Below are positions 23,338 through 45,154 of a stretch of DNA of 64,000 nt, in pieces. The stretch's first letter is position 1. Every line of letters starts with the position of its first letter. A program made the position numbers and the translations under genes. The stretch comes from Elusimicrobiota bacterium. Lineage in GTDB: Bacteria; Elusimicrobiota; Elusimicrobia; F11. Location of the stretch: assembly GCA_022072025.1 (NCBI GenBank), contig JAJVIP010000033.1, forward strand, positions 1 to 64,000, written 5' to 3'. Under the pieces are notes generated by a model that was not told where the DNA came from, searched no databases, and saw only the letters and a list, made by a program, of their open reading frames with translations.

Positions 23338-23403
23338 ACATTCCCGGTCTATTTCGCAATTGGGGCATGATTTCTTAATCGAAATTTAATCTCGCCTAAA
23401 GGT

Positions 23404-23429
23404 TTTCTTAAGGGGTTTTCATCTATAAA
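23404..23429 (+). promoter_or_regulatory. putative promoter of giant gene 1
   Basis: TATAAA at 23424-23429 lies 7 bases before the ATG at 23437, so transcription would begin on or next to the start codon. No Shine-Dalgarno sequence is present. TTTCTTAA occurs at 23371 and again at 23404, exactly 33 bases (three helical turns of 11) apart, which could be activator sites. Confidence 0.45.
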
Positions 23430-23436
23430 GAATGTA

Positions 23437-26400
23437 ATGAGGATCCCGGTCAAAAAATCGATTTGTGTCGCGCTTTCGCTCTGTTATTTCTCTACCCAAG
23501 TGGCGTTGGGGGGGATCGCGGAGTCCAATATTTGGACGGAACGAAAGAACGCGGCGCGTTTAAACAACAAATCCACCTCCTCTCAATCGCAATTCGCTCA
23601 ACTGCCCGCCTCCCATTCGACCTCCATTTTTAGGCAACTTCCTTCAGTGGCCTCGGCCTTGCCCCACTTGCCAAGGTCAAATGACACTCTCTTCTCTGGA
23701 AAACTGAAACTTTCGCCCCCTCTGAGAAATCTGGCGGAGGCCCTCCCTCTGGCCTATGCAACCCTTCAAGACGTCCATAACTCCGGGGAAGATCAAGTGC
23801 CGCCCGTGGTGCTCTTGCAAGATGTTCATATGAATACGGAGGCTCAAACCAACATTGCGCGGGTGTTGCAAGAATTGATCAATCGAAAATCTGTTGGTTT
23901 GGTTGCCGTGGAAGGGGCTTTTGAGAAGTTTGACTTTAAGCCTTTCCGAGAATTCCCCGATAAAAAAATCGCTCATGAGGTCACGCAGATCTTTCTCGAC
24001 AAGAACGTGTTGGCCGCCCCTTCTTATGTCGGCATTAGGAGCGCCCAAGAACCTCCTCTGTTCCTGGGTGTCGACGACCGTCCCCACTACGAAGCCAACG
24101 TCCAAGCCTATCTCGATTCCCGTCCCTTAATGGAACGGTTGCACAAGGAGATAGATCAACAAGAAGCGAAACTGAGCGGTGAAAAGCGGGGCGCTTTCTC
24201 TCCCGATCTTTTACGGTTTGATGCTGACCGTTGTGAATATGCGAAGGGACAGATGGGGCTTGGGGAGTACGTCAGCAAGTTGTCAGCTATCAGTTCTCAG
24301 TTTTGTCATCCTGAGCGCAGCGAAGGATCTCTTGGTTTTATAAGTCCTAAAGAGATCCCTCGTCCTTTGAGACGGACTCGGGATGACACTGTCAATAACC
24401 TGCGTCGTTCTGTTGAAACGCATCACTTGGTCATAGAGCAATTTTTAGAGGCTTACGATCTCGAAACCCGCCTCGACTTTAATCGCGTGGAACGCGAACG
24501 GAAAAGCGTGTTGGAAAAATTAAGCCCGACCCTCAACGAGCGGGAGATGACCGATCTTGTGGCCGCCAGTTTCGCCTATCGCATGGGAAAAATTGGTTTC
24601 GGGGCCTATTATCAAAATCTTAAGAGGTTATGCGCCGAGAAAGGAATTTTACTTCGCCACACTCCCGCCTTTGATGATTACATTCGCTATGTGCTTCTTT
24701 CAGACGGTGTCCAAGGCGGACAACTCTTTTCGGAAATCAAGGCGTTGGAGAGAAAAATATTTTCCTCGCTGGCCCGCACGGAAGAAGAGAAAAACCTGAT
24801 CAGGGAAAGCGAACATTTGGATCTTACGCGGAAGCTGATTGATTTTTCTCTGACGCCGGAGGAGTGGCAGAAATATAGAGAGGCGGACCGTGGTACAAAG
24901 GCCCAAGGTCCAAGTACTTCTTTAAAAGACTTCGAGTCTTTCTACGAACAAGCCGATCTCCGCAGCCGCAAGATGGTGGAGAATCTTTTGAAACAAATTC
25001 CAAACCCTAAATTCGAAATTCCAACCCAAATAAGTCAGTTGAATCGTCGCCCCGGCAATCTTTTGGCCGGGGCCCAGGTTTTCCCCATGAAGAAAACCTG
25101 GATCCCGGCCAGAAAGCATGCCGGGATGACGGCACTAAAATATTCACCGTTGATAGAAGGTAATGGCCGTTCAACTGAATTATTCGGCCTAAATTCTCAT
25201 GAAGAACCCAATTCCGAAGAATTTCGAGGACCCATGGTTCTGGTCGCTGGCGGTTTCCACACTCAGGAAATCGCGCGCCTGCTGCGCGATAAAAAAATCT
25301 CATATATCGTTGTTTCACCAAAAATCACTCGCTTCAACCATGAGGCTGGAGGCCCAGCCGAATATCTCAGCGTGTTTGCCCGAGAAAAAACTCCGCTTGA
25401 TAAGTTGTTTGAAGGAAAAAAACTTTTCTTAAGCGACAAAGCCACCCATCTGACCCATGCGCCCACGGCCCTCCGGTGGGCCGCATTTGCGTATTCCATT
25501 CTAACGGAGACTGTTGCGAAAGTAAGCTTTAAGCCGTCATCCCGGCAATCTTTTGGCCGGGATCCAGGTTTACCGTCGGGAGAAAACCTGGGCCCCGGCC
25601 AAAAACATGCCGGGGCGACGAATTTGTCCATTTTTCAACTGTCCCTAACGAGACTTTCGAAAGTAACCTTTTTCTTTGGTTCTAAAAAATTCAGAGCGGA
25701 ATTGAAGGGCGATAAGGTCCTATCGATTCAAGATGTTACCCCGGGGCGTCTCGCCTCATTCTTCATTCTCCAAGGGATTGTTCCCTTGATCCTATTCAGT
25801 TTGGTTCTCGCCGGTCAGATTCCGTTGGCTCTTCTCCTCCTGGCGGATTTGGTGGTGATTCGAGGTTCCTATCACTGGTGGATGAAAATGAAGCTCAAGT
25901 TCGCCGCGGCCAGGTCTGAGGAATTTGAGAACCCAGTCCAAAACATCAATCGATCGAAATCCATTACGATTTTATCTCGAACCGTTAACGTTTTCGTATC
26001 CATTCTTCCCATTGTCACCACCATTCTGGGTTCCTTCATTCCAACCGGGTCGCGCGAGATTCGAACCATTCTGGGTCTCAGTGGGTTTGCATTGGGGGCG
26101 GGTCTCGTCTATGTGATTCGCTTGTATCAACACAGGGCCAGCGGTCAGAAAGGATGGCCTTCTTTTCATGACCTCTCCAGCGACCTGCTCATCAATGCCT
26201 CCTTCTTGTCCTTTGCTTTGAGGGGCATCCTTCCTGATGAAATACATCCGGTCGAGTATGGTTGGTTTCAAACCACTTTCCTATCGGATTATTGGACTTG
26301 GATTGTTGGATTTCACTTTTTCTTTGGTTTTGTCGTGATGGGAATCTCATTCGGAATGGCCCGGGCTTGGAAGAGGTATCAAAACAGACGAGAAGGACAG

Positions 26401-29400
26401 GCGGATGATGGAAACCCCTATTATTTCAACATCTCACCCCGTTCCACTCGTTTTTGGTTGTTGGCTCTTCCTCTTTTGGACGTGATGATGAAATTTGTCG
26501 GAATCCATTTCCCGGAAATGACGGCTTTTCATGCGGGGTCAGCTTCGGCCCTGATCTCCTCTATTCACTATTTGTTGTGGATCGCTCTATATGTTTCCTC
26601 TTTTTACATACGGATTCCGTTGGGGGGTGTGTTGCATGTGTCAGGACTGATGGTGAATCTGACGGAACTTCTTTTGTGGGGAGGAGTGTTTGACCCCTTG
26701 TTTGTTTTGAATGTGCGCCCCAATTTGGCGGACCTGTTGGGTTTGGTGGGCTTTGGGGTGATGATTGCCGATGTGTTTCATGTTTTTTTCAGCCGAGATT
26801 TAGAGTTGAGAAATATTTTCCGCCACCGACAACCCCAGGCCTTCCTCCGCTCGCTTTTCATGGGGCTTGTTTTGTTGACTCCAGTTCTAGGAATTATTTC
26901 ATGGTCGGCCAAAGGCCCACCACTCGCGCCACCGGGTCTTTCGGTTGTCACGGAGGACTATGCCTTTATGCTCAAGCCTGATTCGGCTGGACTGGAAAAT
27001 AATCCCCAAGATTTCAAACGTTATGTTGAATGGGTGCTGCGGCGTCAGTCGTTTGGAGACCCGGAAAAAAGTTCCATTAATTTCTCTGGTTTGGAGGGCC
27101 GGGAATTGGTGACACGTTTTCCACATCAAACGTTATCGGTTCTTCTTGAGTTGGAGAAAAAATTTCCGCCCATAAAAAAACACATTCCAAAACCCGCAGG
27201 TTTTGTCTATTCCGTTCAAACGTTTCAGGATGAACGGTATCCACTTGCGATTCAACATCTCAAAGCAGTTGTTGAGGCTTATCTGGATATTCAAAATCTC
27301 ACTGATTTGGATTCTGTGTCTCCGGGCAAAGGTCTATTGGTTGTCAGTCGGCCTATCATTGGGGACACTCTATTTTTGCGAGAATTTTCCCGAAAACAAA
27401 TTGAACAGCGATGGATAATAAATCCAGGCGCGCGCGAGCTGGATATCGATCAAGGGTTCACGGCTGAAACCGCGCATTCCCTAAAAAATTCTGTCGACCC
27501 ATTCTGGAAAAGGGTTGTGGATGAGTGGATGTCGAGGCATCCAAAAGAGATTCAAGAATATTTGGACTCTCTCAAGCCGCCCCAAGAAACCTCAGAACCT
27601 GCTTATGGCTTGGGCCAGAAAGCGGGGGTAAATTTTGAACCAACCCGTCCCGCTTCCTCTAACGACGCAACAAGCCCTCTTTTTTTAAACCCAGATTCCT
27701 CGGATGAATCTTCGGATCTCTCTTGGCCTTGGCTTTTGGCCATCACGGGGGGAGCGTTCTTGTGGGCGGGGTGGTTCGTGAACGCTTTAAGGAGAAAATC
27801 ATCTGCCATCCGCTGGGTGATTGAACGCCGAGCTGTTGGGCCGCATAAGGCATTGTTCCGAAAATTAATCGATATTAAACATCCATCTGTTCCAAAACAC
27901 CGAGTCAATTCACAAGGGGAAATCGAGGTTCAATGGATTAAGGGAATCAGACTCGACGAAGCAGCGAAAAATCTGCATTCAAAACCGAGTCAGGTGTTTT
28001 TTGAACAATTGGCAGAGTGGGTTTCTCAGGTTGCAGAGGCCTGTGTGTTATTGGAAAGCCAAGGGCTTCAGCATGGAGACCTCTTTGAAAACAATGTGAT
28101 CATTGAAACCGAAACAAACCTCGCTCTATTAATTGACTTTTTTGATCCGAGATGGATTCTGTGGAACAACAGAACCAATTCATTTGAAGTTCGAGACCAA
28201 GACGCAAATATGATTCGAGAGGTTCTCAAAGAACCATTAGTCCATTGGCTGCTGGCGAATCAGACTCAAAACCTGGGGATAAACGAGCAGGACCCCCTTT
28301 TCCGGGATCTGTGGCAGTTTGCCTCAGCTCGATATGATTCTGTTGCCGAATTCAATCGCGCCCTCCAAAACGTTCGAAAAAAAATTAAAGACGGATCAGG
28401 TCGGGGAACTCCAAGACGGGACCTCTCCGCAGGGGTCGTTTTCATGCCGATGGTGGAAACTTTGGTCTTTCAAGTCATGATCAATTCAATTTTGGGCCCG
28501 TGGTGGACCGCCGGGCTCTTCGCGGCCGCTCATGTCATCACGCGTTGGGTCAAACGCGCGCTTGCGGAGGGGTTCAATAGAGAAACATTAGCCGGGATGA
28601 CGGCACTAAAATTTCCAAAAACCGTTTTTCAAATGGCCCTCCTCTTCATCCTTTCCGTTGATTTCACAATCCCCTTCCAATACTTTGATCCTGTCACCGC
28701 CTTCTTTATCTCCGCTGCCATTCACTCCGCCTACAATGCCTTTGTTTTGTTCGTCCGTTCTCTGGGGCGCCGGCTAGAAAGCTCTCTTATCCAAACCCTC
28801 GGCGACTGGCTGCCGCTGGCGTCGTTGGGCGGCGAGGCGCGTTCCGCGAAGCCAAAAAACCAGACTCAAACCAAGTCACCAGCATATATTCCAAGGGTGC
28901 ATAGCGTTTCCACTTTGCTTGAAGATGAAAAACCGAAGTTGGAGGAGAACAAGAGTTCAGTATCCCAATCCGTGTTGGGTTTTATTTCACGAAACTTTTC
29001 GGACCCGGACATTCATGCTTTGCATCATGAGATGATGGTCCGATCCTCAACTTATCGGGATAATTTCCCAAACACTGAAAGGTCGGCAGAAAAAATAGAG
29101 GCAAACACCATACGGCAATATTGGGATGAGTTAGAAACCGCGAAATTGTTGTTGGAAGAATCTTTTCAAACAGGAATTCCTCTTCAAGCCCAGCTTCAGG
29201 ACGAGATTTTGGGCGGGTATAAAATCATTCGCCAGATCAACCAAGGCGGGTTTGGAATCCTATACGAAGCCAAGTCCTTGGCCGATCCAAATGGACCCTC
29301 TGTGGCCATCAAGGTGCCATCCATCCGAACCATTGATCCGCTTTCAGGTCGGCCGATCCCAACGCCCCTCACGCATTTGATTGTGGCTATCGCCGCCCTT

Positions 29401-32400
29401 CGGCAAGAACATAAAAATCTCGAACAAGCGCGGAAAAGAACAGGTGTGGCGCCGCGTCCCATCGGGCTTGGACGGGACAGAAATACCGGAACATCATTTT
29501 TGGTCATGGAGTTCATTGAGGGCCCCAATCTTGCCGAAAGGAAAATTCCCCTGACCCTTCAAGAGGCCATTCGATTGGGCGAAGCGGTATTGGAATTGCA
29601 TCAGGCCGGTTTGGTCCATGGCGATTTAAAGCCGGAAAATATATTGATTTCGTTTGAGGGTCGGGTCCGACTGGTGGATTTGGGCGCCGCGGTTTCTTCT
29701 TCTCACACCCCCCAAAAACAATTCGGCGATTATTTCTTTAGCTTGATCCATGTTGACTCCGGTCGTATCACAGGAGAATTTTCAACCACAGCCTCAGACG
29801 TCTTTTCACTGGCCATGGTCATTTCGCATCTTCTCCCAAAGGATATTGAAGTCCGGAAAGATGTGCGGTCTATTCTTGTTCGAGCCACCAATGAAAACGT
29901 CGGCGAACGTTCTCTTCTGACCAAATTGTTGGATGATTTACGTTCCGTTGACCTCGCTTCCCAGGTTCCAAAAGTTGAGGGGCGCGGCTCCCTTTTTTCT
30001 CAACTGACAAAATCGATTCAATTTAAAGATACCCCGTTGGATCCCATGCAAGTGACCCAGCCAGATACTTGGCGTGGGTTTAAGGCTTCATTACGTGATG
30101 GTGCGATCGGCCGAGATTTGACATTCCATTTATCTCCCAACCCCATCAATCCCCGCAATTCCTCGGTCGCTTCGGGGTTGGGGCAAATTGCGCCGGCAAT
30201 AATTTTTGTTTCTTGGGCTCAGGGGCACGCCTGGATAACCTTCGCGGTCTTTCTCATGGTTCTTGCGATTGTCGTCATTGTGCGGTTCATCCTTTCCACT
30301 CAGTCAGATTCTGGGCCAGAGGTCAAAGCATTCACTATGAATGACTATAACCGGGATATATTTCCCATCCTGAACAAAGCGTTTGAAGAACTTCCTGAAA
30401 ATGTGAAAACGGTGATGTTAAAGACGGGGGTCACACAAGATTGGATTCAAGTGATGAAGCGAGAAAAAGAAAATTTAAACCCGCTCTCATGGGCCATGAC
30501 CGAAACCGTCAAGGCGTTTCCGGATCCAAATGCGTGGCCAACTTTGCTTCAACTCTGCCGCCAAGCAGACAAATATGGAGCAGGACTTATTGGGAACACA
30601 TTGCCCACCCTGGCTGGCTCATTAAAAACCGTGGCCGATATTAGACGTATTGGCCTGGGCTTGATACTCATTGCAGACCGACATGAAACCGAAGGGTTTA
30701 AAGATGCCGTTTTTTCTTATATGGCTTTTCGATTTGATGAATTTTTCGGTGAAAGACTCATGGACCATTGGGATGAAATAATGGAACTATCCGAACTTTA
30801 TGGACCTGAGACACATACCCTGTTTCAGGATGGATTAAATTTCCCTTATCGTGAAATCGGACAAAATCGGTTTTATGATCGGTGGCCTCTCTATCGAAAA
30901 ATTGCTCTTCAAGCCAAAGGACAAGCACTGGGACTCCTCCAGCAAACGATTCCGAAACTTGAAACCAAAAATCCGGCGATTTTGGACAAGATTGTCGATG
31001 ACCTCATTCGTATAGCCAACGGTATGCCCGCGGGAGAAACCTACGTATTGAGGTGGGGCATTCCTGCTGCGCTGGACGTTTTCAATTACGACCCAAATTA
31101 CTGGCCGGCCATCCTTGGCCCCGCTCTCAGAGGAAACGAGAGATCCTATGAGCTGCTCGACAAGGGGTATGTGGCGCTGAAGCCTTTATTGGCCACTCCA
31201 GATTTGGCGGAAAAGTATGGGACAGATCTCGTGGGCGCTTTTCTCTCAAATCCGGAATTGCAGTCGTCGGAGAGGTCTCATTTTTGTGAAAAGGTTCTCC
31301 CTTCTCTTATTGATAATTGGGGGGAGGATTTTCCCATGTACTGGCCATCGATCATAAAGGTGTTGGGAGACGCCAAAAACAGTCACGGAATTGTCGAAGC
31401 ATTATCAGTGATTCATGAGATGAAAACGGTTATCCACAACCGATCTGATTTTGAGAAATATGCCCGCGACCTGGCACGTCTGTCAAACGCCAGCGGTCGA
31501 CACTTTCATGGGTTGCCCGCTGAACTGAAATCTTTCAAACGCGCAATGCCAAACGAATGGCAAACAAGGTGGGATGATGTCGTCGCTATGGCAGTGCGGT
31601 CTGAGGGAAATATACATGAGTTCTTCATGGCAGGAATTTCCAATGCCCAAAAAGCGCTTGGAGATCGATGGAGTGATGAGGAGTATTGGCAAACATTAAA
31701 AAGAGTTTCGGAAAGTGCAGGAGAATGGGGCGCGCACATACTCTCTTACGGCATTCCGTTTCTGATTCAGCACAATTTGGTTAGTTCACCCACGGATCTG
31801 GAAAGATACGCAATCGACATGGCGAAAATGGCTGGGGCCATGGAGGGCAATGGAAGTCAACTTTTCTATACCGTGCTTAACGCTATGGCTGATTTGTCAG
31901 CAGGAAATTTGGTCACCCATTGGCCGGATTACATGAAGATTTGTCTGGCCAATGGCGATAAGGCTCATGAATTGATTCGAGACGGCTTCCAAACAGTTAA
32001 AAATAATATTGCTGATGACCTTTTCGATCAATTCTGGACGCCCTTGGTGAAGTTCTCTTTGGAGGCGCCAAAGGCAGCCCAGTTAACGATGAGGATTTCG
32101 TTTCGGTTGCTGCTCACAAAATCCACCACAAAAGAGGAGTTCAGTTCTTATGTTGATGATTTCATCGCGCTCGGGAAATCGGTTAACAAAGCCTTCTTCT
32201 ATTCTGGCGGGCTTCCAGACTGGCAACATTCTGCGGGTCGGCATCTACATGAACTGTGGCCCGGTATCCGCGATCTGTCGCTTGCTTGCGGCTCACTCGC
32301 TCATGAAGTTCTTAATAACAAGAACAAATTTTTAAGCAACATTCGTAACGGCAGAGAGACTCCTGGAATCGCTTCTGAAACCGACCGGGTGCGTTTGGCG

Positions 32401-35400
32401 TCGGATTATTTGACTTCGTTGGCCCATATCGTGCGGTCGATCAGAAAAAGCGACCTAGCGGAATTTGAACAAACAACAGTGATCAATTACTTGCTCAAGT
32501 CCAAGCGCAATCCGTACCGGTTACGCGCCATCTACGATATCTATTTCAATCCCAATGAGACCATGAAGATTCAAGACCCCACATCACCAGTGGAAGCCTG
32601 TCACAGAATGTACATTGACCGGCTGAATTTAAAACACAAAAAGAAACAACCATATGCCTTCTACGATGCTATGCCCGATGAATTTCTGCGCGCCCATCAA
32701 CAACACCCGCGACGGCTGCCCATCACATTGTTACCGGCATTTATTGATTTGTTTCTCAAAGAAGATATGACGCTTTTAGCCGATTATGATTTTGAAGATA
32801 ATAAGAAAGTTCCTACCGCTGAGCTTTTCTTCAAACTTTTAACGAGCGCCAATCGTCTCCAGGGATGGGAAGGCCTCAAGCTGCGCGTCCGCCAGAAAAT
32901 GGACCTTCTGCAAGTATTTAAAGACAAAGAAGCGGTTGGAAAATACGTTCGATTGGGACTCATTTTTCTTGAGAAGAAATACGGCCTGGCAACGTTGAAA
33001 GGCAAAGATTTATCCAAAGAAACACTCATCAACAACATTCCGGATGGTCCCGCCTATGAAATAACACGATTCTTGATCGACTGGCTGGAACTTTCATTTG
33101 AATTACTGGAAATTGAACGCGCCGCAGAAGAAATAGGCAACCAAAACATCCCTGTTTATGAATTGCGAACAAGGGTGCTCACGCGTGTCGATCAATTCAT
33201 TGCCGCCACAAGCGAACAGAGAGAAAAATCCTTCGCTGCGTATCAATCGGAAGTGAAAAAGTTTCGAAAAGCATTCCGAGTTCTGAAGCTGAATCTTTTG
33301 GCGGGGTTCTTGAAGAATCATGCGCGTGAATCTCATCAAGATTTTGAAGTTGGCGTTCGCCACCTGCGCCTTTACGAAGAAATTTCCGGGAGAAACCAGG
33401 ACGGAAAAACCGAGTTCGACAACCTGTACGAATTGGCGGTTTCCAATAAAAATGACCCGGACGCGATCGACAGCCTTTACCGCGTCGCGGTGGCTCAGGC
33501 CAAAGGTCAATACCAAGCGTATCGATATGAATCCGCTGACTACCTTGATGCGTTAAATCGTTGGGAAAAAGCGCGATTGGAAAAAGGTCAAAAACCTGAG
33601 GAAGTCAAACTCGAACGTCAGAGGAGTCAAAAAGCCTGGGAAGAGAACCAATATTATTCCGCGACTGATCCCAACACAGGCAAAGAAGTATCGATGGCCT
33701 TTACGGATGACTTCACAACGACATTGAACATGGGCAACCCCGTCAATTTCGGATCCTGCCAAGCCACTTACAAGCCCACTTACAACCGCGGATTGACCGG
33801 AACATTATCCAATGGGGGAAATAAGCTGGAAGTGTTGTTTTCAGAAGGGAAGTTTATCGGTCGCCGGATTGTCAGATTAAAAGCCACAGACGAAGGCGAG
33901 CTGATCGTTTTTAGAGAGCCGCTTTATTTTGATGGACAACTGGGATTCCCAATAGAATCCGTGAAAGAGAACCTGGATCAAATTCATGCGCTGGTAACCT
34001 CACGCCTGGGATTGCGTCATGACCAAATAGATGATGAACCTTACGAATCGGCTTCCGTAACATGGCCGGCGGTTAGAGGCAACGCCGCATGGGATTATTC
34101 AGACACTTACGGCAAACAGTTTTCAGACCAGCCGGCAGGGCTCGTTTATGTGAATGAAAAAACAGATTTTTCGGTGTCCTTAGAACTTCGGCTGGTTTCG
34201 GCTCAAAAAGCCACCGTCCCTCAGAATTGGATTCAAATTAATGAACTGGAGTTCGCGCAACGAAATTTCGGAAAGAGCCGACTCGGTATCGATGTTTCCC
34301 GTGTGTCCGTCAAGGAAGACGACAATTCGAAAAGCGTAATCCTTCCTATCCGTCTTGCACTCATTAGTGGGAATGTCAAAAAATCCGCCTCCCTCCTTCC
34401 CATCAACAATCCCTTCTATCTCATCGTAATCGCGCCGATATGGGAGACGCTGGCGTTTCACAACGGCGCGGAGAGTTGGGCGGCTCAGGGGTTGTCTTGG
34501 CTTTTGGGAATTGACTATTCCGGCAATACCATGGCGCTGGTTCTTATCGGCTCGGTTCTTTTCGCATTCGCGCACACGATTGTCATGTGGATTGTGCGGG
34601 CGCATCACTCCGGGCGCGCGGCCTTGAGCTACGGCCGCAAAAACAACCTCTCTCTTTCCCAAACCTTTTTCATCTTCCTGCAGCTCGCTTACCGACTCAA
34701 CCACAACCATTTTAAACGCGATATACATCATCTCCTGGTTCGCTCCATTCTCGGCTTTTGTTTGACGGTCCTTCCCAGCCCAACGGTCCTACACGGCGCT
34801 TACAATTTCCTCGTTTTTTCCTTCTTCGGGAAGAAGCTTCCAATCGGAGCGATTGGATCAACAAAAGGCAATGGGAGCAAAGAAACCGACAACCCTGAGC
34901 AGCGTGTTCTACAAGCCGCCATCGACAAAATGAACGAAGAAGTTCCGAGCATTTACAATTCCATTAATCAGCAATTGGACCAAACAACAAAAAACCAGGT
35001 GACTCTTCAGTCAAGTATCAACGATCAACTTAAAAAGCTTTTTGAAGAGGTCGCGGCATTGGGCGTTGGAATCCAAGAATTTAATGCGCTTTCACAAGCC
35101 CTCCAGCAAGGGACGTTTTCACCGACCCTGGTCATGAACACGCTTTCCCAGGTTTTTTACCGTCATGGCTTGTATTTATCGTTCGATTATTATTCCACGG
35201 CACGTATTTCAAACGTCCCTCATATAGGAATTTGGGAGATCATCAAAACGGAAGTCGACGAGAGAAACGGCACCGTCGTCATCGAGTTGGGCAAGAACCG
35301 CGTGCCTACGTATTTTATGTCCGAAGAAATGGAAGACGCAGCGTGCGCTTTCACCACAGATAAGGTCATATATGATGGGAAAATCCCCATCGTTCTCAAC

Positions 35401-36792: not shown

Positions 36793-36820
36793 AAGAAACA
36801 GCCCCCCCCCCTGAAATTTC

Positions 36821-36882
36821 ATTAGGATTTAGAACTTAGAAATTAGGATTTAACGGCGAATGACTAAACTCTAAATCCTAAT
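36821..36882. repeat. inverted repeat between the two giant genes
   Basis: ATTAGGATTTAGA (36821-36833) pairs with TCTAAATCCTAAT (36870-36882), with an extra ATTAGGATTTA in between. It may act as a bidirectional transcript end for giant gene 1, as TTTTATTTT follows. The nearby run of ten C bases at 36802-36811 is a likely sequencing-error spot but is non-coding. Confidence 0.6.
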
Positions 36883-36897
36883 GGATTTTATTTTCCC

Positions 36898-36941
36898 GTT
36901 ACAGAAGCGTTACAAATTTGTTTCAGAAGATTTACAGATTC
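36898..36941 (+). promoter_or_regulatory. four 11-bp direct repeats upstream of giant gene 2 (PHO-box-like)
   Basis: GTTACAG, GTTACAA, GTTTCAG and TTTACAG begin at 36898, 36909, 36920 and 36931, exactly 11 bases apart. Direct 7-mers in 11-bp register are how OmpR/PhoB-type response regulators bind, and TT(A/T)ACA-type units recall the Bacillus PhoP box. A TTTAAT box follows at 36952. Which regulator binds is unknown. Confidence 0.5.
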
Positions 36942-37051
36942 TTAAGAGGAATTTAATTTTGATTCACTAGCATTCTTCCGAAAACAGGATTCAAAAACCA
37001 TTCGATTTGAAAGTTTTTGACGCCCAAATATTTTATTTCTCGGGGGAAATA

Positions 37052-40000
37052 ATGAAAAAACAATTGGCCGGTGTCCTCTCGGTCGTGTTGTTGCACACTC
37101 AAGTCGTATTCGCCTATCAACCACAAAAGTCCTTTTGGCAAGAGCGCCAGAAACAAATTCAATATGCTTCATTGCCTCTCCCGCCACATAAATCACTCGG
37201 TTCTTCTTCCGCTCTCCTCCCTGAAATCAATACGAACTCCGCGCTAACAAAAAAAACCAAGGACCTAAAAGGCGCGGACCGGTTGGCTCGAATAACGCCG
37301 CATGTCACATTTCAAGATAATTTTAACGGGAAGTCGGATCGCACAATTCTCTTGTTGCAGGACATTCACCAGAACCAAGAGGCCCAAACGCAACTTTCCT
37401 CCGCGTTAAAGGCCCTGGTTGAAGGGCCGGGAAAGGGCGCCGTGGTGGTGGGTCTTGAAGGCGCGCATGGACATTTTCTTTACGATCTTTATAAAAAGTT
37501 TTCCGATCGCAAGGCGGCGACCCAAGTGGCCGATGAATTTTTCCAAGCCGGGGACATCAGCGGGCCCGCCCATGCGGGTTTCACCAGCTACCAACAACAG
37601 GGGCACCCGTCTCTCTTTTTTTGGGGAATCGAGGATCCGGACTTGTATCGAAAAAATGTCCAGGCTTATCGAAATTCTCATCAGGAAAAAAAGAGCGCGC
37701 AAAGACAAGTCAACGCGCTGATCTCTGAGATTCGTGATCAAAAGAAGTCAGTCTATTCCAAAAGTCTGTTGGCCTTTGACCAAAAACTGTCCAGCTATCG
37801 TCAAGGAACCTTGTCGTTGGCTGATTATGTCGAAGCGTTGCGCCTCCACGCGCCCACTCTCTCCTTGCAACTGCAAGTTTTTCTCGAGGCCGCCCGAATG
37901 GAGAAATCATTAAATTTCTCTCGTATTGAAAAAGAACGCCCCTCGCTACTTGAAAGATTGCTGTCCCGTTTAACACCAGCAGAGACGAATGAACTTTTGT
38001 CCCGAAGCGTGTCCCTGGAAAGACGTTTGGAAACCTATGGCCAGTATTACCAGTGGTTTCGCCGCTTGTGCGAGCAACATGAAATTTCGCTATCAGACAC
38101 TCCGGCTTTTGACGACTATATCCGTTATGTGCTCTTGACCAATGAGTTGCGCGCGGACGAGCTCATGGAAAGCGTTAAGCGGTTGGAAGATCAAGTTCTT
38201 AACCAATTGGCGGGTTCCCCCTCAGCTCTTGAGTTGGCACAGAGAGATCAATATGCCTTTTTGGCGGGCCGTTTGTTGGAGTTTGGACTAACCCCGCAAG
38301 AATGGGTCCAGTATCAAACGCGGAAAAGAGACGTTCGTCCCCTTAACCTTTCCACCTTTGAATCTTTTTACCAAGCCGCTGACGCGCGCAACGAAAAGTT
38401 GGCGGACAACTTATTGTCCGTAACCCATCGAGCCTCATTGGTCGCGCCGGGCACTGAGCTTGCGGTGTTGGTGGTGGGGGGCTATCACACCCCCGGCATT
38501 ACGGAGGTTTTTAAAAGGAAAAATATCTCCTATGTGGTGGCCTCTCCTAAAATTTCAAAGGTCGAAACCGCGCAGGGCAGCGCTTACCTTTCAGTTTTTG
38601 ACCAGGAAAAAACATCTCTCGAAAAAATTCTGTCCGGAGAGAAACTTTTCTTAAGCGCCGTTCCGGCCGGCACCGCTCGGTCCTTGATCCCGTGGCCCTC
38701 GGTGCTTCTGCGCATGGCCGAACGCGTTAAAACCCTTTCCAGAAATTTCAATGCCTTGGATGAAAAGATCGCAGAGCGGTTAAGAGAACATCAATCCCCC
38801 CAAAAATGGTTGATCGCCGGCGTTTTGTTGGGGGGGATCCTTTGGTCCACCGATTCAATTTTTTCTTTTAATTTGTTGTGGGGGCTTCTTTCCGTCTGTT
38901 TTTTGGGCGCTGTCATTGTTGGTCAAGGGAAAGGAGGGTCTGATCAGAATTCTCAAGTTGAGATATTAAAGGAATTGGGTGTCAATTTTGATCCGAGGTT
39001 TCAAGCGCGGGCTCTCGCTTTGTTGGAAAAAGGAGAGGCGAACTGGACTGCTGAAGATAGGCAGGAACGGGACGCTCTCATGACGGAGGCCCGGAAGGCC
39101 CATGATTGGATGATGGGTTGGATAAAAAAATCCCCCCATTACGCCAACCTCAAAGGAAACCCGCCCATTTTGATCAGCCTTGAAGGCATTATCAGCGCCA
39201 TCGAAGAAAATTCAGGTCGTCGCCTCACCAGTTATGCGGGAGGCCTGGGAGTATTGTTTGGCGAGTGGGTGCGCGCCATTGCCTATTTGGGGGGCACGTC
39301 ATTTGACCCCGATCCCGATGCGCCGCAATTCACCATCATCATTCCCAATTATTCAGAAGGAGTGAAAAAATCACACTTGAGTTGGTGCGATATCCCTTTG
39401 GCAAACGAACGGGTGTCCGTGCGGCCCCAGAATTATGGAATTGACCGGCTGAAAGAGGCCGACGGCAGCCCGCTTCAAGTTGAAATCCCTGTTTCTTTTG
39501 GTGACGAGGGTGTCCAACTGGTCAAGGTGGAGTTCTCCGCCGTTTCAGTTGGGAATATAAAAATCGCCATGCCAATGACGGATATTGAGGGCCAACCTGA
39601 CAACCATAGGACCATCCTTCGTCAACTTTACGATGGGGAACTCTCAAGCGAGACAAGATTTCGTCAGGAATGGGTGATTGGCCTCAGCGCTTATGAACTG
39701 AGGAAAAAATGGGGACTCACGGAGGGCCCCATTCACCTCAACGAAACGGCGACCTTTGCCTATTTGATCGGCATGATTCGGGAGGTCACGGAAGAATATG
39801 TTAAGCAAGGGGCCCCGCTCTCTGAAGCTTACGACCTGGCTTTGGAACGTGTGGGATCCCAAATTGTGTTTTTTACCCATACTTTGGTAGCAGCGGGAAT
39901 TGACAAATTTTATTCTGAAATCCGTATGCTGCATTATGTTCGCAAGTATATGTCCATGTCCGAGGTGATCATGCGATCGGTGGATCATGACCTCATGGCA

Positions 40001-43000
40001 TCCTGGGTGGTAACGGGGAAAACTTCAGATTTAGGAAGCAAAAAACTCCCTTCGCTTTTACACCGCTCGCATTATTCTCCTCTCAACTTCATCGTTCGCC
40101 TCATCGTTCAAAGTAAAGGCGGATCCATTGTGGCGGTGAGCAAACGCAATGCGGATAAAGCAAGAGAATTCATCGTTGAAGAAGGTATTATCGACAAGGT
40201 GGATGCTTGGCGGCTGCCGCTTACTTGGGTGACCAATGGGGTGGATCACCTGTTCTGGATGAACAGGGTTGTGGCCAAAGTAATGAATTGGTTCCGGTCC
40301 GATCCCGATCAAAGAACCCCGTGGAGAATCTTAAACCCCCAAGATCCTTTGGCATTAGAAATGGTGACGGAAATATTTAATAAATCTTTGCCCTCCAACT
40401 ACAAAAAGGTTGGCCTTAAAGACAGAAAGCTTAAACGATCACTCCAACAAAACAAAAAGAAAGCCATTGCCATGGTGAGAAAATCAACCAAAGTCCGCTA
40501 TTTGCGGGTTCTTTCCGACCTGAAGGAAAAATTCCAAACCGATGGCCAGCATTCAGAGGCTTTGTATCAAGCCCAATATGAACGGGTTAAAACTCGCTGG
40601 GAATCTTATTCGGGCGAGACCCTGCCGTTGTCTCTTGCAGACCTCGATACCGAAGAAATTCAAAACCACTCCTTTGATCGGCTGTTGGATTCCAACCTAT
40701 TCCTTGTGACCTGGGCGCGCCGCATTGTGGAATACAAACGGATCCTGTTGACGCTTTTTGGGGAACAACTCCCAATGGTTGAAAGAAGAATAGTTCGCTT
40801 TGTGAAAATTAACGGACAAATTGATGAAAATGATTTGGGTTACATTGAAAGCGCCGGGAACCTCGCAGATGAAATTATTCGTGACTTGGGAGATGAAAGC
40901 CTTCGGAGATTTGTTGACTTGGTCCTGCAGCGCCAGACCCAGTTCATTTTTGCCGGCAATGCTTTTTCTCGCGATGGTCGGTTGATGATTTTTCTTTTAC
41001 ATCGGGTCATTGATCATTTGGCCAAATCACACCCCGCCCTCATGAACCGGGTGGTTTTCTTGGAGGGTTACAACGAAGAGAAATCTCAATTGTTGGTGCG
41101 GGGGGCGGACGCTTGGTTAAACACGCCGCGACTGTGGGAGGAGGCCTCGGGCACCAGCGGAATGAAGGGAGAAGCCGTTCCCATCACCAGTTTAGACGGC
41201 TGGGCCGCCACCGGCTTTTTCCCTGGCTTGATTGGGTTTGGAATTGAGTCTCCCATGGTGGGGCCAGATCCCGATCATCCCACGCCAGAACACCCCAAAA
41301 ATTGGGCTCCAGCGTTAAATGAATCTTCAGGTGACTATAGAGAAAAATTAGAAGAGAGAATGGATTCCCTTCTGGCAAAGGAATATTTGAAACAAGAGGC
41401 GGCCAATCTTTATGATGCTTTGAACAGAGCAGTCGATATGAAAACAAATCGCCCTAACGATTGGCTTAATTTGGTTCGGCGTTGGAGCTATTACCGCGCC
41501 ATGGTTTATGATATTCGCGGAGAGATTACCGGTCGTTTGGTGCCCGATGTGAGTGGCACGGGGAGTGAGAAGTACGTTCACAATTCCGATGATTTTGAAC
41601 CAGGAATCCTGGCTTTATACGACAAGGCCATTGAGGGACGCCGCAGGATCAGAAGGCTTCACGCCGTCCGTCTTTCCCCTCAGTTAAAGGATTTGTTTTC
41701 CAGAATTAAACGAGAGTTTAAATTTGCGCCAGCACAAGTGCAGTTGAACGGACAACCACCCACCCTTCAGTTTGATTTTACGGCAGATCCTGAATTGTTA
41801 TCCCAAGTCCAAATTGTCGCTCACTGGGGCAATGAAATACGTGGACAACATTGGCGCAATACGGTTATCCCGGCCCAAAACATTGCTCGAACAAAAGTTG
41901 ATGAAAAATGGGTGGGGGATATAAAAATTTCTGAAACCCATCACCATCAAGTCACCTTCCAGCTTCCAAATGAGCTCATCCCTGGAGATAAATACGGGGT
42001 TATATTTTTTGTGGCGCCGAAAGAAGTGCCGATTGATGAAATCGATATCTTTCGACACTGGATGGATTCCGGTAACGTGTTGGTGACAATCCCTCATAAC
42101 ATCTCCACAACTCCTGATCCGATACCTCATGACCTTAGAAGCGCGCTGCTTCCCATGGTTGGGACGTTAATCCTGGCAAGTTTGGATCCCAGCCTCCTGC
42201 CCTATGTGGGAGCGGTGGTGGGAATTGTGGCAATAAGTTTTTTCTTGGCTTTTCTGATTTATTTCTTTCGCGGGGCCCCCAGAGTTAATGGATACATCGA
42301 AGAGTTTGGCAAGGAACTCGCACAGGGGAAATTCGACGAAGACTTATTAATGAAGGCTATTCAGTCTCTGGCCCAGGATGAAAATTTTATTGAGTCTCAG
42401 ACGGATAAGATTCCGTTCGTTGATATTCGAGAAAAAATGCTGGTTCAATTGGCCGATGCCATTCGACAATCCACTTTGCGTGATGAGATTATCGTTCGGA
42501 TTCAAGAAGTGGATATTCTTTTCAATAGGGACATTGGGGTTCGTAAATCCGCTCGAAGAATTTTGAAGGCCCTTGACGTTTATAACGATTTGGAGAATCA
42601 GGTTAATATGGCAGGTTCTGAACCTCCTTCCATTGATCTTATGTCCAGAAGCATCCTGGGGGGGCTTGTGGGGGCTTGGGTCCCCAGTATTTTAAAAGCT
42701 TTAAGGCATGGGGACCGTGATTTGATCGGAGCTGCTTATGAGGTTTCCAAATCGGAAAAGATTGAAGTCGAGGGTATTAAAGATCGCATCGACATTGTGG
42801 CCATGTACGCCTTTCAATATGTGTTTAAAAAATACGGTATCACAGGAAAGGCCATGGCCAGTGAAGGAGAGGGACGAGATGAAGTTAAGGCGATTGTCGC
42901 TGGAGAATTGGTGGCTCCCCCCGTTTTTTGGAAACGGATTTCCCTGAATCTTTCACATGTTTTCCTTTTGTGTTTGTTGTTGCCCTTGAAATCTTTCGGG

Positions 43001-45154
43001 TTTAATGTTCGTGTTCCCGAAAGATTTTGGGAAATTCCTTTTTCTGTAGATGTGGTTGAAAATACAAACGCCGCCTCAACCAACAACAAGGGAAAAGAAT
43101 TTTCTCGACTTTCATCATCTGAAGGAGGAGCAACCACTCCCATGGTTTATGGTCCCGGTGTGGCTTCTTTGGGAATTATGCCGGATGTCTATGCGGACCT
43201 CATTACAACGAGTGTTCCTGAAGAATTCAAGTCTCAGTTTGACGATTTGGATCCCATGGTCAAAGACGATCCCCTTCAACATGACATTCCTGATGAAAAT
43301 GGGATGCCAACGGCGGGCGGGAGGAACGTCTATCACGAAGTAAAAAGACAGTTGGAGAAAATTGCATCGGCCAACAATATTGGGCTGGGAGAGATAGAAG
43401 TTATTTGGCTGAATCGAGGAAAAACGGCCAAGGATTCTGATGGACATCGTGATACATTGCGAGGCCGTGCCTTCGAAAAAATTGCTGATGAGACCGGACT
43501 CACGTTGTCTGTCATCAATGATGGGACGTTGGATGCGGCCATATCCGCGGGGATAGGTCGCAAAGAAGGAAAACATTTGGTTTTTTGGGGGACGTCCGGA
43601 TCCCCTGAGGCCATGCAAACCCTTCAAACATTGGCTCCTTTTTTCCGGGCTAGACAGGTTGGTGTTCCCGGTCTCCATCCCAGGTATGGGCGTCGAGTCG
43701 CTGTTGCGGCCATGAGATTTTATTCTAAAAATATCAATCATGCCCAAGCCTATAGGTCAAAAGAGGAAGCAAAATCGAAGCGGGCTAGCAAAGACGCGAT
43801 TGATATGAGAAACCGTTTTCATTGGATGGAAAATGAGCGATTGGAAATAGCCAAAAATCCCTTTTCTCAAGAAATTTTAGACGGAAATAAAGTGTTTCGA
43901 CTCAATGATGTCAAAGGGAGTATCCACTCCATCAGGGGACTCATTACGGACAGTGGAATCTATTCATTACGAGGTGCCATCCGTATTCCTAATGCATCGA
44001 ATGGTCAACCTCGATATGCGGTTCATGTGGTTCATGTCAGCCAAGAAACAAGTGGAAAACCAACTTGGTGGGTAGAAAAAGTGGTGGTTCGAGATCCGCT
44101 TTCTATTCTTCCCAAGAAATTCAGAAATCAGGGGGATGCAAAAAATTCCCAGAAAAACCCAACCATAGAGAAGGCCCAATCCGCACTTCTGCCCATGTTG
44201 GGGGCTCTATTCCTGGCAAGTTTGGATCCCAGCCTCCTGCCCTATGTGGGAGCAGTGGTGGTGTTCGTCCTGGGGTCGGTGTTGTTCCTATTCTTGGGCG
44301 GATGGGGGAAAAAGGGGGTGGATCTTCTATCTCACATTATTAGAGTGAGGGTATTGGTTTCACGCGTTGGTCGCATGGAGCAAGCCTTGTCCCGTCCAGA
44401 ACAGGCTGATTCCTCAAGTGTCCTCGCAACTTTGCTTCGCTTGGCGCGCCCCAAGAAAATACTGGAAGGGGTCGGCCAAAGCCATGTGTTGTCCACGATT
44501 GCGGACCAGGTTCAAAGCAGTTCGCCTGCCCAACGTCCGCGACGTTTAATCTTGCTGTCGCTTTTCGCATCACTTGTGATGGCGGCCTCCAATGCAAACG
44601 CAAATCAATCATTAGGATCGGCGCTTAGGCCGTCCTCGAATGCGAATCAATCCGAAGTTGTTTCCATTCACGTGGGGGAACGCGCTCTGAAACCGGGTGA
44701 AACCATTGACCAATATATTCAAACTGAAATTAAACGGTTAAAGGGTCATGTGGTTAGTCTTGAAAAGGGTTATGAGAGAATAATTTTCGTAGGGGATGGT
44801 TTAAAATCGCACTCCGCTATTCAATCCCGACTCTTGGATGAAATAAGTCATGATAATGGACTTATTGTTCCAATTACGGACGAGGTCATGGTTGAGGGAT
44901 CCGTTGATTACAACAGGTTGTTAATGTTGGCCGATCGGAAAGCCGCTTCTGGTTTGGTTGGACTGAACGCCTTGGCTGATAAAAAATATGGTGAAGCCCG
45001 CCTCGTCACCATTACAGAAAATCCTGGTCTTTATACCGGCGATGAGGACCTGATGAAGGTTTGGACCCTCGTTACGCTTATTGGCAGTGCCTGGGTTTCA
45101 GTCCATATGGGGGCCATTTTAGAAGCCGCCCAAATGGCCGCCAAGCATGCCTAA
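37052..45154 (+). CDS. giant multidomain protein 2 with alpha-glucan phosphorylase domain
   Basis: 2700 residues from the ATG at 37052 (GGGGGAAA upstream); an in-frame start at 37007 would precede the signal peptide (residues 1-21). About 90-570: the ChaN/Tiki-like module shared with giant 1 (LLQDIH with His106; AFDDYIRYVLL; GGYHT). Membrane helices lie near 590-630. About 640-1540: a GT35-type alpha-glucan phosphorylase (SYAGGLGVLFG near 728, VTNGVDHLFW, RRIVEYKR, EASGTSGMK from 1364, the PLP/phosphate region). A beta domain follows. A membrane hairpin SALLPM..LASLDPSLLPYV occurs at 1697 and again at 2377. Between them sits a GlpX-like (class II fructose-bisphosphatase) domain (VINDGTLDAAIS near 2157, VFWGTSGSPEAM). 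The C-terminal domain is unrecognised. How cytosolic-type sugar enzymes work behind a signal peptide is unclear. Confidence 0.8.
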   Translation: MKKQLAGVLSVVLLHTQVVFAYQPQKSFWQERQKQIQYASLPLPPHKSLGSSSALLPEINTNSALTKKTKDLKGADRLARITPHVTFQDNFNGKSDRTILLLQDIHQNQEAQTQLSSALKALVEGPGKGAVVVGLEGAHGHFLYDLYKKFSDRKAATQVADEFFQAGDISGPAHAGFTSYQQQGHPSLFFWGIEDPDLYRKNVQAYRNSHQEKKSAQRQVNALISEIRDQKKSVYSKSLLAFDQKLSSYRQGTLSLADYVEALRLHAPTLSLQLQVFLEAARMEKSLNFSRIEKERPSLLERLLSRLTPAETNELLSRSVSLERRLETYGQYYQWFRRLCEQHEISLSDTPAFDDYIRYVLLTNELRADELMESVKRLEDQVLNQLAGSPSALELAQRDQYAFLAGRLLEFGLTPQEWVQYQTRKRDVRPLNLSTFESFYQAADARNEKLADNLLSVTHRASLVAPGTELAVLVVGGYHTPGITEVFKRKNISYVVASPKISKVETAQGSAYLSVFDQEKTSLEKILSGEKLFLSAVPAGTARSLIPWPSVLLRMAERVKTLSRNFNALDEKIAERLREHQSPQKWLIAGVLLGGILWSTDSIFSFNLLWGLLSVCFLGAVIVGQGKGGSDQNSQVEILKELGVNFDPRFQARALALLEKGEANWTAEDRQERDALMTEARKAHDWMMGWIKKSPHYANLKGNPPILISLEGIISAIEENSGRRLTSYAGGLGVLFGEWVRAIAYLGGTSFDPDPDAPQFTIIIPNYSEGVKKSHLSWCDIPLANERVSVRPQNYGIDRLKEADGSPLQVEIPVSFGDEGVQLVKVEFSAVSVGNIKIAMPMTDIEGQPDNHRTILRQLYDGELSSETRFRQEWVIGLSAYELRKKWGLTEGPIHLNETATFAYLIGMIREVTEEYVKQGAPLSEAYDLALERVGSQIVFFTHTLVAAGIDKFYSEIRMLHYVRKYMSMSEVIMRSVDHDLMASWVVTGKTSDLGSKKLPSLLHRSHYSPLNFIVRLIVQSKGGSIVAVSKRNADKAREFIVEEGIIDKVDAWRLPLTWVTNGVDHLFWMNRVVAKVMNWFRSDPDQRTPWRILNPQDPLALEMVTEIFNKSLPSNYKKVGLKDRKLKRSLQQNKKKAIAMVRKSTKVRYLRVLSDLKEKFQTDGQHSEALYQAQYERVKTRWESYSGETLPLSLADLDTEEIQNHSFDRLLDSNLFLVTWARRIVEYKRILLTLFGEQLPMVERRIVRFVKINGQIDENDLGYIESAGNLADEIIRDLGDESLRRFVDLVLQRQTQFIFAGNAFSRDGRLMIFLLHRVIDHLAKSHPALMNRVVFLEGYNEEKSQLLVRGADAWLNTPRLWEEASGTSGMKGEAVPITSLDGWAATGFFPGLIGFGIESPMVGPDPDHPTPEHPKNWAPALNESSGDYREKLEERMDSLLAKEYLKQEAANLYDALNRAVDMKTNRPNDWLNLVRRWSYYRAMVYDIRGEITGRLVPDVSGTGSEKYVHNSDDFEPGILALYDKAIEGRRRIRRLHAVRLSPQLKDLFSRIKREFKFAPAQVQLNGQPPTLQFDFTADPELLSQVQIVAHWGNEIRGQHWRNTVIPAQNIARTKVDEKWVGDIKISETHHHQVTFQLPNELIPGDKYGVIFFVAPKEVPIDEIDIFRHWMDSGNVLVTIPHNISTTPDPIPHDLRSALLPMVGTLILASLDPSLLPYVGAVVGIVAISFFLAFLIYFFRGAPRVNGYIEEFGKELAQGKFDEDLLMKAIQSLAQDENFIESQTDKIPFVDIREKMLVQLADAIRQSTLRDEIIVRIQEVDILFNRDIGVRKSARRILKALDVYNDLENQVNMAGSEPPSIDLMSRSILGGLVGAWVPSILKALRHGDRDLIGAAYEVSKSEKIEVEGIKDRIDIVAMYAFQYVFKKYGITGKAMASEGEGRDEVKAIVAGELVAPPVFWKRISLNLSHVFLLCLLLPLKSFGFNVRVPERFWEIPFSVDVVENTNAASTNNKGKEFSRLSSSEGGATTPMVYGPGVASLGIMPDVYADLITTSVPEEFKSQFDDLDPMVKDDPLQHDIPDENGMPTAGGRNVYHEVKRQLEKIASANNIGLGEIEVIWLNRGKTAKDSDGHRDTLRGRAFEKIADETGLTLSVINDGTLDAAISAGIGRKEGKHLVFWGTSGSPEAMQTLQTLAPFFRARQVGVPGLHPRYGRRVAVAAMRFYSKNINHAQAYRSKEEAKSKRASKDAIDMRNRFHWMENERLEIAKNPFSQEILDGNKVFRLNDVKGSIHSIRGLITDSGIYSLRGAIRIPNASNGQPRYAVHVVHVSQETSGKPTWWVEKVVVRDPLSILPKKFRNQGDAKNSQKNPTIEKAQSALLPMLGALFLASLDPSLLPYVGAVVVFVLGSVLFLFLGGWGKKGVDLLSHIIRVRVLVSRVGRMEQALSRPEQADSSSVLATLLRLARPKKILEGVGQSHVLSTIADQVQSSSPAQRPRRLILLSLFASLVMAASNANANQSLGSALRPSSNANQSEVVSIHVGERALKPGETIDQYIQTEIKRLKGHVVSLEKGYERIIFVGDGLKSHSAIQSRLLDEISHDNGLIVPITDEVMVEGSVDYNRLLMLADRKAASGLVGLNALADKKYGEARLVTITENPGLYTGDEDLMKVWTLVTLIGSAWVSVHMGAILEAAQMAAKHA
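42171..42220 (+). repeat. near-identical 50-bp direct repeat, copy 1 (inside giant gene 2)
   Basis: TCCTGGCAAGTTTGGATCCC and the following 30 bases match 44211-44260 with one difference (G/A at 42214). Both encode LASLDPSLLPYVGAVV in the same frame. Confidence 0.85.
44211..44260 (+). repeat. near-identical 50-bp direct repeat, copy 2 (inside giant gene 2)
   Basis: Second copy, 2040 bases (680 codons) after the first, just behind the GlpX-like domain. The surrounding protein is also similar (SALLPMLGALF against SALLPMVGTLI), but the DNA identity is limited to the 50 bases. Confidence 0.85.

Follow-up and report, generated by a model that had tools for sequence, protein, structure and literature searches.

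Two giant genes of an Elusimicrobiota bacterium as probable members of a co-regulated family of exported multi-enzyme proteins

Two adjacent giant open reading frames (ORFs), here termed A and B, lie on the forward strand of a 64,000-nucleotide stretch of DNA from an Elusimicrobiota bacterium (contig JAJVIP010000033.1, positions 1 to 64,000; hereafter the window). We find that both probably belong to a family of giant exported multi-enzyme fusion proteins whose genes are co-regulated. At the level of sequence, the family is marked by an operator-like upstream site, a signal peptide with an NFWxER box behind it, a ChaN/TIKI-like module, a long and fast-changing cargo that often includes intact cytosol-type enzymes and membrane helices, and a C-terminal tail ending in alanine; as a description of this kind, the anatomy of leader, tail and operator is secure. 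The original prediction, made from the letters of the window, had proposed a pair of secreted proteins in which one N-terminal module carries swapped payloads, a platform for exporting or displaying diverse enzymes. The module extends to at least 28 genes, most of which also share an operator-like site and a C-terminal tail, two features that the prediction had overlooked.

Two open frames and their shared leader module

Both frames were found open, as predicted. ORF A is uninterrupted from 23437 to 36792 (4451 amino acids) and ORF B from 37007 to 45154 when counted from a TTG; translation of B almost certainly starts instead at the ATG at 37052 (2700 amino acids, 37052–45154), where the classic signal peptide MKKQLAGVLSVVLLHTQVVFA begins. 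Stop-codon reassignment was ruled out as the origin of the long frames because neighbouring genes in the window have normal lengths under the standard code. Signal peptide-like N-termini were recognized in A at 23437–23517 (hydropathy, charged N-region) and in B at 37052–37114 (sequence features), and A–B blastp homology begins inside them, consistent with the common signal-peptide style noted originally. This homology (E = 1.7e-58 plus 4e-14, 30–52% identity) spans the whole shared region, from the signal peptide through the motif EKTxLxKxxxGxKLFLS, and all of the motifs first used to relate the two proteins (AFDDYIRYVLL, FESFYxxAD and GGxHT...ISYxVxSPKI) are present in it. Past the module, A and B show no convincing blastp similarity, in line with different cargo. 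The module comprises residues 1–670 of A (23437–25446; blastp to B at 2e-58, alignment) and ~535 residues of B (37052–38656).

Collected by tblastn with B's module together with extracted genome stretches, the family has at least 28 members, found as 28 distinct module loci in the 3.64-Mb genome of this bacterium. In all 28, the module forms the N-terminus of a long frame with no internal stops (27 complete within contigs, one running off a contig end). The proteins measure 884 to 7527 amino acids and total 93,404 amino acids with the chosen starts, equivalent to 280 kb or about 7.7% of the genome. A third copy on the same contig, at 67,440 (3.4 kb past the window), has a dockerin domain in its cargo. 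Furthermore, 20 of 60 class genomes carry the module, usually in many copies (6 to 27 among the matches listed per genome), and none was found in other families of the class among the 60 examined. The search for further module-led proteins, offered originally as a check of the platform, thus returned both a large set at home and copies in relatives, and the original refuting condition, absence of the module outside the pair, clearly fails. Records matching a family profile came from Elusimicrobiota metagenome-assembled genomes and one Omnitrophota; none was found in plasmids or phages.

Its profile matches and conserved residues, which include the full active-site set, make the module a probable divergent domain of the ChaN/TIKI superfamily and support the ChaN/Tiki assignment first proposed. 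PF04187, the top-ranked Pfam family by number of members, matches 17 of the 28 at E values up to 1 (best 5e-5), and TraB matches occur in two; the B module alone reaches 0.0064 and 16.9 bits, below the cut-off of 27.7. The invariant residues are D104-x-H106, E136, R446 and GG-x-H479 (B numbering), a 2His/2acid plus Arg set of TIKI type that opens with Asp instead of Glu. These five residues are kept in all 28 copies of this genome and in 109–111 of 111 aligned sequences, where D104 and H106, but not the others, are ascertained by the partial use of a QDxH motif to find relatives. In the solved structure of the TIKI endopeptidase RRSP, the essential Glu-x-His, Glu, Arg and final His are E3900/H3902/E3930/R4001/H4030 (PMC6254334), with which the five module residues align; E136 lies thirty residues past H106 and H479 33 residues past R446 in the module, against 28 and 29 in RRSP. 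The wider TIKI/ChaN/TraB/Ere superfamily (PF04187, PF01963) likewise has Acid-x-His, Glu, Arg and GxxHis in the same order with matching local spacing, whereas the module has Asp in place of the first Glu, bears a ~270-residue helical insertion and serves as the leader of giant proteins.

Structure prediction had been suggested originally as a check. The AlphaFold2 model of B's module (pLDDT, the predicted local distance difference test, of 83) is alpha/beta, a TIKI/ChaN-like trait alongside the weak PF04187 matches, and places a mostly helical long insertion between E136 and R446. However, a Foldseek search of this model against the Protein Data Bank (PDB) gave no significant match (ChaN 2g5g had the highest probability listed, 0.11), perhaps because the helical insertion may hide the fold, and a profile search of PDB sequences with the module gave no match.

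Swapped cargo, a common tail and operator-like sites

Payload swapping was borne out across the family, in that an all-against-all comparison of cargo found few related pairs and Pfam found very different enzymes. In A, a hydrophobic multi-helix region (residues 770–1160, 25744–26916; hydropathy) precedes an APH-like kinase region with an intact HGDLFENN motif (27874–28176; PF01636, 5.8e-8), a protein-kinase domain with an intact HGDLKPEN motif (29485–29856; PF00069, 1.8e-14) and a HEIGH zinc-protease-like sequence recognized by motif alone, without a profile match (35635–35649). In B, a hydrophobic segment (38867–38923; hydropathy) lies between the module and an alpha-glucan phosphorylase with an intact EASGTSGMK motif (39221–41215; TIGR02094, 7.8e-44). 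Pfam and NCBIfam recognized, in other members, adenylate kinase with TPR, starch synthase, GH77 glucanotransferase, transketolase with CheR-type methyltransferase, SF1 and SF2 helicases, an AAA ATPase, a pyridoxal phosphate (PLP) enzyme with GNAT, Glu/Leu dehydrogenase with pyruvate phosphate dikinase, PP2C with FHA, low-molecular-weight phosphatase, NUDIX and HEAT with cation efflux; several members had no match in their cargo at all. On inspection, most recognized domains keep their catalytic motifs (GPPAAGKGT, DGYPR and RADDN in adenylate kinase and CSKNYYRS in the phosphatase, besides that of B), and a few motifs, such as that of GNAT, are partial. The cargo enzymes thus mostly keep their active sites and are apparently working. 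Separate standalone genes for adenylate kinase and starch synthase lie elsewhere in the genome. A GlgC reading of the nucleotidyltransferase in C6_41332m was dropped on inspection, its sequence being closer to mannose-1-phosphate guanylyltransferase.

Comparison with relatives points to fast cargo turnover between genera. For the C-terminal half of A, the only counterpart in 20 relatives is a stretch of 263 residues at the end of a 5224-amino-acid frame. B has one clear counterpart, in Ca. Obscuribacterium, with a phosphorylase 42% identical and a module 33% identical (the tenth-best module); the two diverge fully past the phosphorylase but keep a terminal Ala (KHA, SQA), and this combination of a differing distal part with constant ends shows cargo exchange. 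The low module identity of the pair may reflect either faster module evolution or module swapping.

The C-terminal tails of A (NFATMRHRLIQA, 36754–36789) and B (ILEAAQMAAKHA, 45116–45151) were recognized by tail comparison. Ala is the final residue in 23 of the 27 complete family proteins of this genome, compared with 9 of 160 other genes (Fisher P = 2e-18); the remaining four have Val, Thr, Thr and Ser at this position. Without any filtering, a terminal Ala also occurs in 27 of the 39 complete frames from relatives. The tail is about 7 residues long, with a preference for Arg at -7 and for hydrophobic residues at -6 and -5 and no Ala at -3, in a positional table that pools relatives after removal by hand of fragmentary or atypical ends and is therefore descriptive. 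Since the tail codons vary and the DNA past the stop is unconserved, the constraint acts on the tail as protein. The strongest independent point for the tail is a second giant of 8109 amino acids (C19:22221-46550), which combines the operator with a similarly styled signal peptide and has AELILRQA as its tail, and in which no module was detected; a Pfam scan of it gave almost nothing. A second common type of C-terminus was seen in nearby secreted proteins of two other stretches of the genome (L199 at 99280 and 99794; L202 at 121292), which end in KLVIVR/KLVIIR/FSVIR.

Gibbs sampling of the DNA upstream of family genes returned the motif AAAAaaTTTACAAgaTCTTAAGGaGATCTTAAGg, at 24 bits compared with 12 in shuffled sequence. 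This operator-like site consists of 11-bp repeats and lies upstream of about 24 of the 28 family genes. Scanning the genome with up to 3 mismatches gave 17 sites, 15 of them just upstream of family genes, versus 0 for the reversed pattern. Within the window, only two sites reach at least 12 bits, one before each ORF (a shuffled control of ten window lengths, with one strand scanned, held two): a weaker copy 57 bp upstream of A (23380–23413; position weight matrix score 20.4 bits) and a copy 127 bp upstream of B (36925–36958; 33.4 bits, leave-one-out 29.3), the core of which was found by the genome scans. Family genes of relatives are also preceded by operator-like sites, the more distant ones showing TTACAAAAAGT repeats. 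PhoB/PhoP-type boxes have an 11-bp repeat spacing, and the family repeats resemble them, making the site a candidate PhoB/OmpR-like operator.

Several neighbourhoods of these sites were also recorded. One module gene and a pstS-phoBR-pstSCAB-phoU cluster (C30:69382-78338) are divergently oriented, and a PhoB-like regulator is encoded at C30:70662-71345. An outer-membrane protein gene judged PorV-like on inspection (C5:125542-127583) is divergent from a family gene and has the operator. Operator-like sites, some of which could be chance, were also seen before a giant secreted frame (C5:73490 onward), a 638-amino-acid secreted protein (C17:119376) and a secreted D-Ala-D-Ala dipeptidase-like protein (C20:67121).

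Competing readings of the family

If A and B belong to a co-regulated exported family, the signal peptide would direct each protein through Sec, the module would work beyond the cytoplasmic membrane, as a hydrolase/peptidase or by binding a ligand, and the tail would carry a signal for sorting or processing that a dedicated factor recognizes, for example a PDZ-type tail protease or docking protein. The whole set would be switched on together by a PhoB/OmpR-type regulator, and one leader and tail would place many enzymes, replaced quickly between genera, at or beyond the envelope. We infer export from the signal peptides. In the adenylate kinase (C5_125127m) and PLP enzyme (C10_181388m) members, the enzyme follows the module without a strong hydrophobic segment in between, and these enzymes would therefore leave the cytoplasm if the signal peptide works. 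Signal-peptide-like stretches also occur internally in three giant frames (L023 at cargo residues 144–163, L043, and the window at about 44546), one of which matches a twin-arginine translocation signal profile. A more specific proposal, in which a TIKI hydrolase leader and the Ala tail form a two-ended system that sends cytosol-type enzymes out as giant polyproteins under one operator, is possible but doubtful. To our knowledge, no bacterium exports metabolism by such a leader-tail system. Microbial TIKI-PDZ fusions exist (PMC6411480), which we treat as a lead toward a tail reader, not a test of one.

A number of observations weigh against a co-regulated exported family. The module lacks a fold-level match to a solved structure; for five of the 28 genes the 300 bp scored contain no operator-like site, although one of the five has a site just beyond, and the site of A is weak (leave-one-out 11.7). 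The pst-phoBR promoter region holds no convincing or strong site, and the Pho regulon was not confirmed as the inducing signal. Cytosol-type enzymes that depend on ATP, S-adenosylmethionine or thiamine diphosphate would be hard to explain in a periplasm, and the hydrophobic segments that lie between module and enzymes in many members, including both A and B, could return the cargo to the cytoplasm.

This last point is central to a reading of the proteins as membrane-anchored receptors, with the module outside, the first hydrophobic segment crossing once and the enzymes acting in the cytoplasm as sensor outputs. By hydropathy, a hydrophobic segment lies within about 150 residues of where the module ends in most members, B has a single strong one before its phosphorylase, and cofactors would be available inside the cell. 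We nevertheless regard this topology as unlikely for the family, given that the adenylate kinase and PLP enzymes follow the module with no strong hydrophobic segment interposed, that several members have many helices and that one has none past its signal peptide. The cofactor problem would also be solved if the giants were a secreted effector arsenal reaching prey or host cells, with module and tail as delivery and release parts, much as in multi-effector toxins. The kinase, phosphatase, methyltransferase and nucleotide enzymes, the fast turnover between genera and the role in predation or symbiosis ascribed to giant proteins of related phyla (PMC10066038) are consistent with this, but Pfam found no delivery, repeat or autoprocessing domain and the cargo includes ordinary carbohydrate enzymes, which together make it distinctly improbable. 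Runaway gene fusion, in which a mobile or duplicating leader captured neighbours and the products are little used, cut up or incomplete, would account for the internal signal-peptide-like stretches, whole-gene starts and in-frame repeats inside the frames. Against it stand the kept catalytic motifs, the 28 of 28 open frames, the conserved tail and operator, and the better conservation of phosphorylase than module in the Ca. Obscuribacterium pair, and we judge it very improbable.

Relation to known systems and further features of the window

Elusimicrobiota are reported to be rich in proteins of more than 5000 amino acids without assigned functions (PMC11573180), and giant frames of Omnitrophota have been interpreted as adhesion or predation factors (PMC10066038). 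Those proteins, from the same or a neighbouring phylum, resemble the present family in their very long frames, several membrane helices and poor annotation, whereas the family has one leader, tail and operator and a mostly enzymatic rather than adhesive cargo. Frames above 20 kb comprise one module-led member (22.6 kb) and the module-less 24.3-kb giant; A and B are shorter. Multi-effector giant and polymorphic toxins likewise combine constant ends with an exchangeable enzyme middle, but the cargo here is housekeeping-like, and Pfam matched neither the RTX-type repeats nor the autoprocessing domain of a MARTX-like toxin in the 28 members. Type IX secretion cargo is also exported with a common C-terminal signal, and the PorV-like gene shares the family operator; the family tail, however, is about 7 residues ending in Ala, and no Type IX C-terminal sorting domain profile matched the family proteins. 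We found no description of a leader-tail-operator family in the literature covered, which did not include a large preprint on giant genes.

With one leader, tail and switch across dozens of otherwise unrelated giants, the unexplained abundance of giant proteins in Elusimicrobiota gains structure. The family raises testable questions about the tail reader, the target of the module, the inducing signal and the export signals on intracellular enzymes, and its operator, module and tail serve as markers for finding such proteins elsewhere.

Some smaller features of A and B complete the description. B carries two membrane hairpins by hydropathy, SALLPMVG...SLLPYVGAVV at 42140–42268 and SALLPMLG...SLLPYVGAVV at 44180–44302; SALLP was considered as a recurrent linker motif of the family and rejected, being a membrane linker in B only. 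An ARAGORN tRNA-Glu call at 40222–40312, inside the phosphorylase coding region, is probably a false positive. The 670-residue module of A contains in-frame copies of interspersed DNA repeats. An insert of repeat-like DNA (CHPERSEGS...RDDT, 24292–24402), lacking from other modules in the alignment, has one diverged copy in the DNA compared, and a palindromic repeat at 25045–25140 has 47 blastn matches in 0.55 Mb of the genome, some overlapping. Another in-frame copy of this palindromic family lies just behind the module (25549–25623; 44 blastn matches). The palindromic repeat reads RRPGNLLAGA..., WIPARKHAGMTALK in frame, and was also found inside other family genes.
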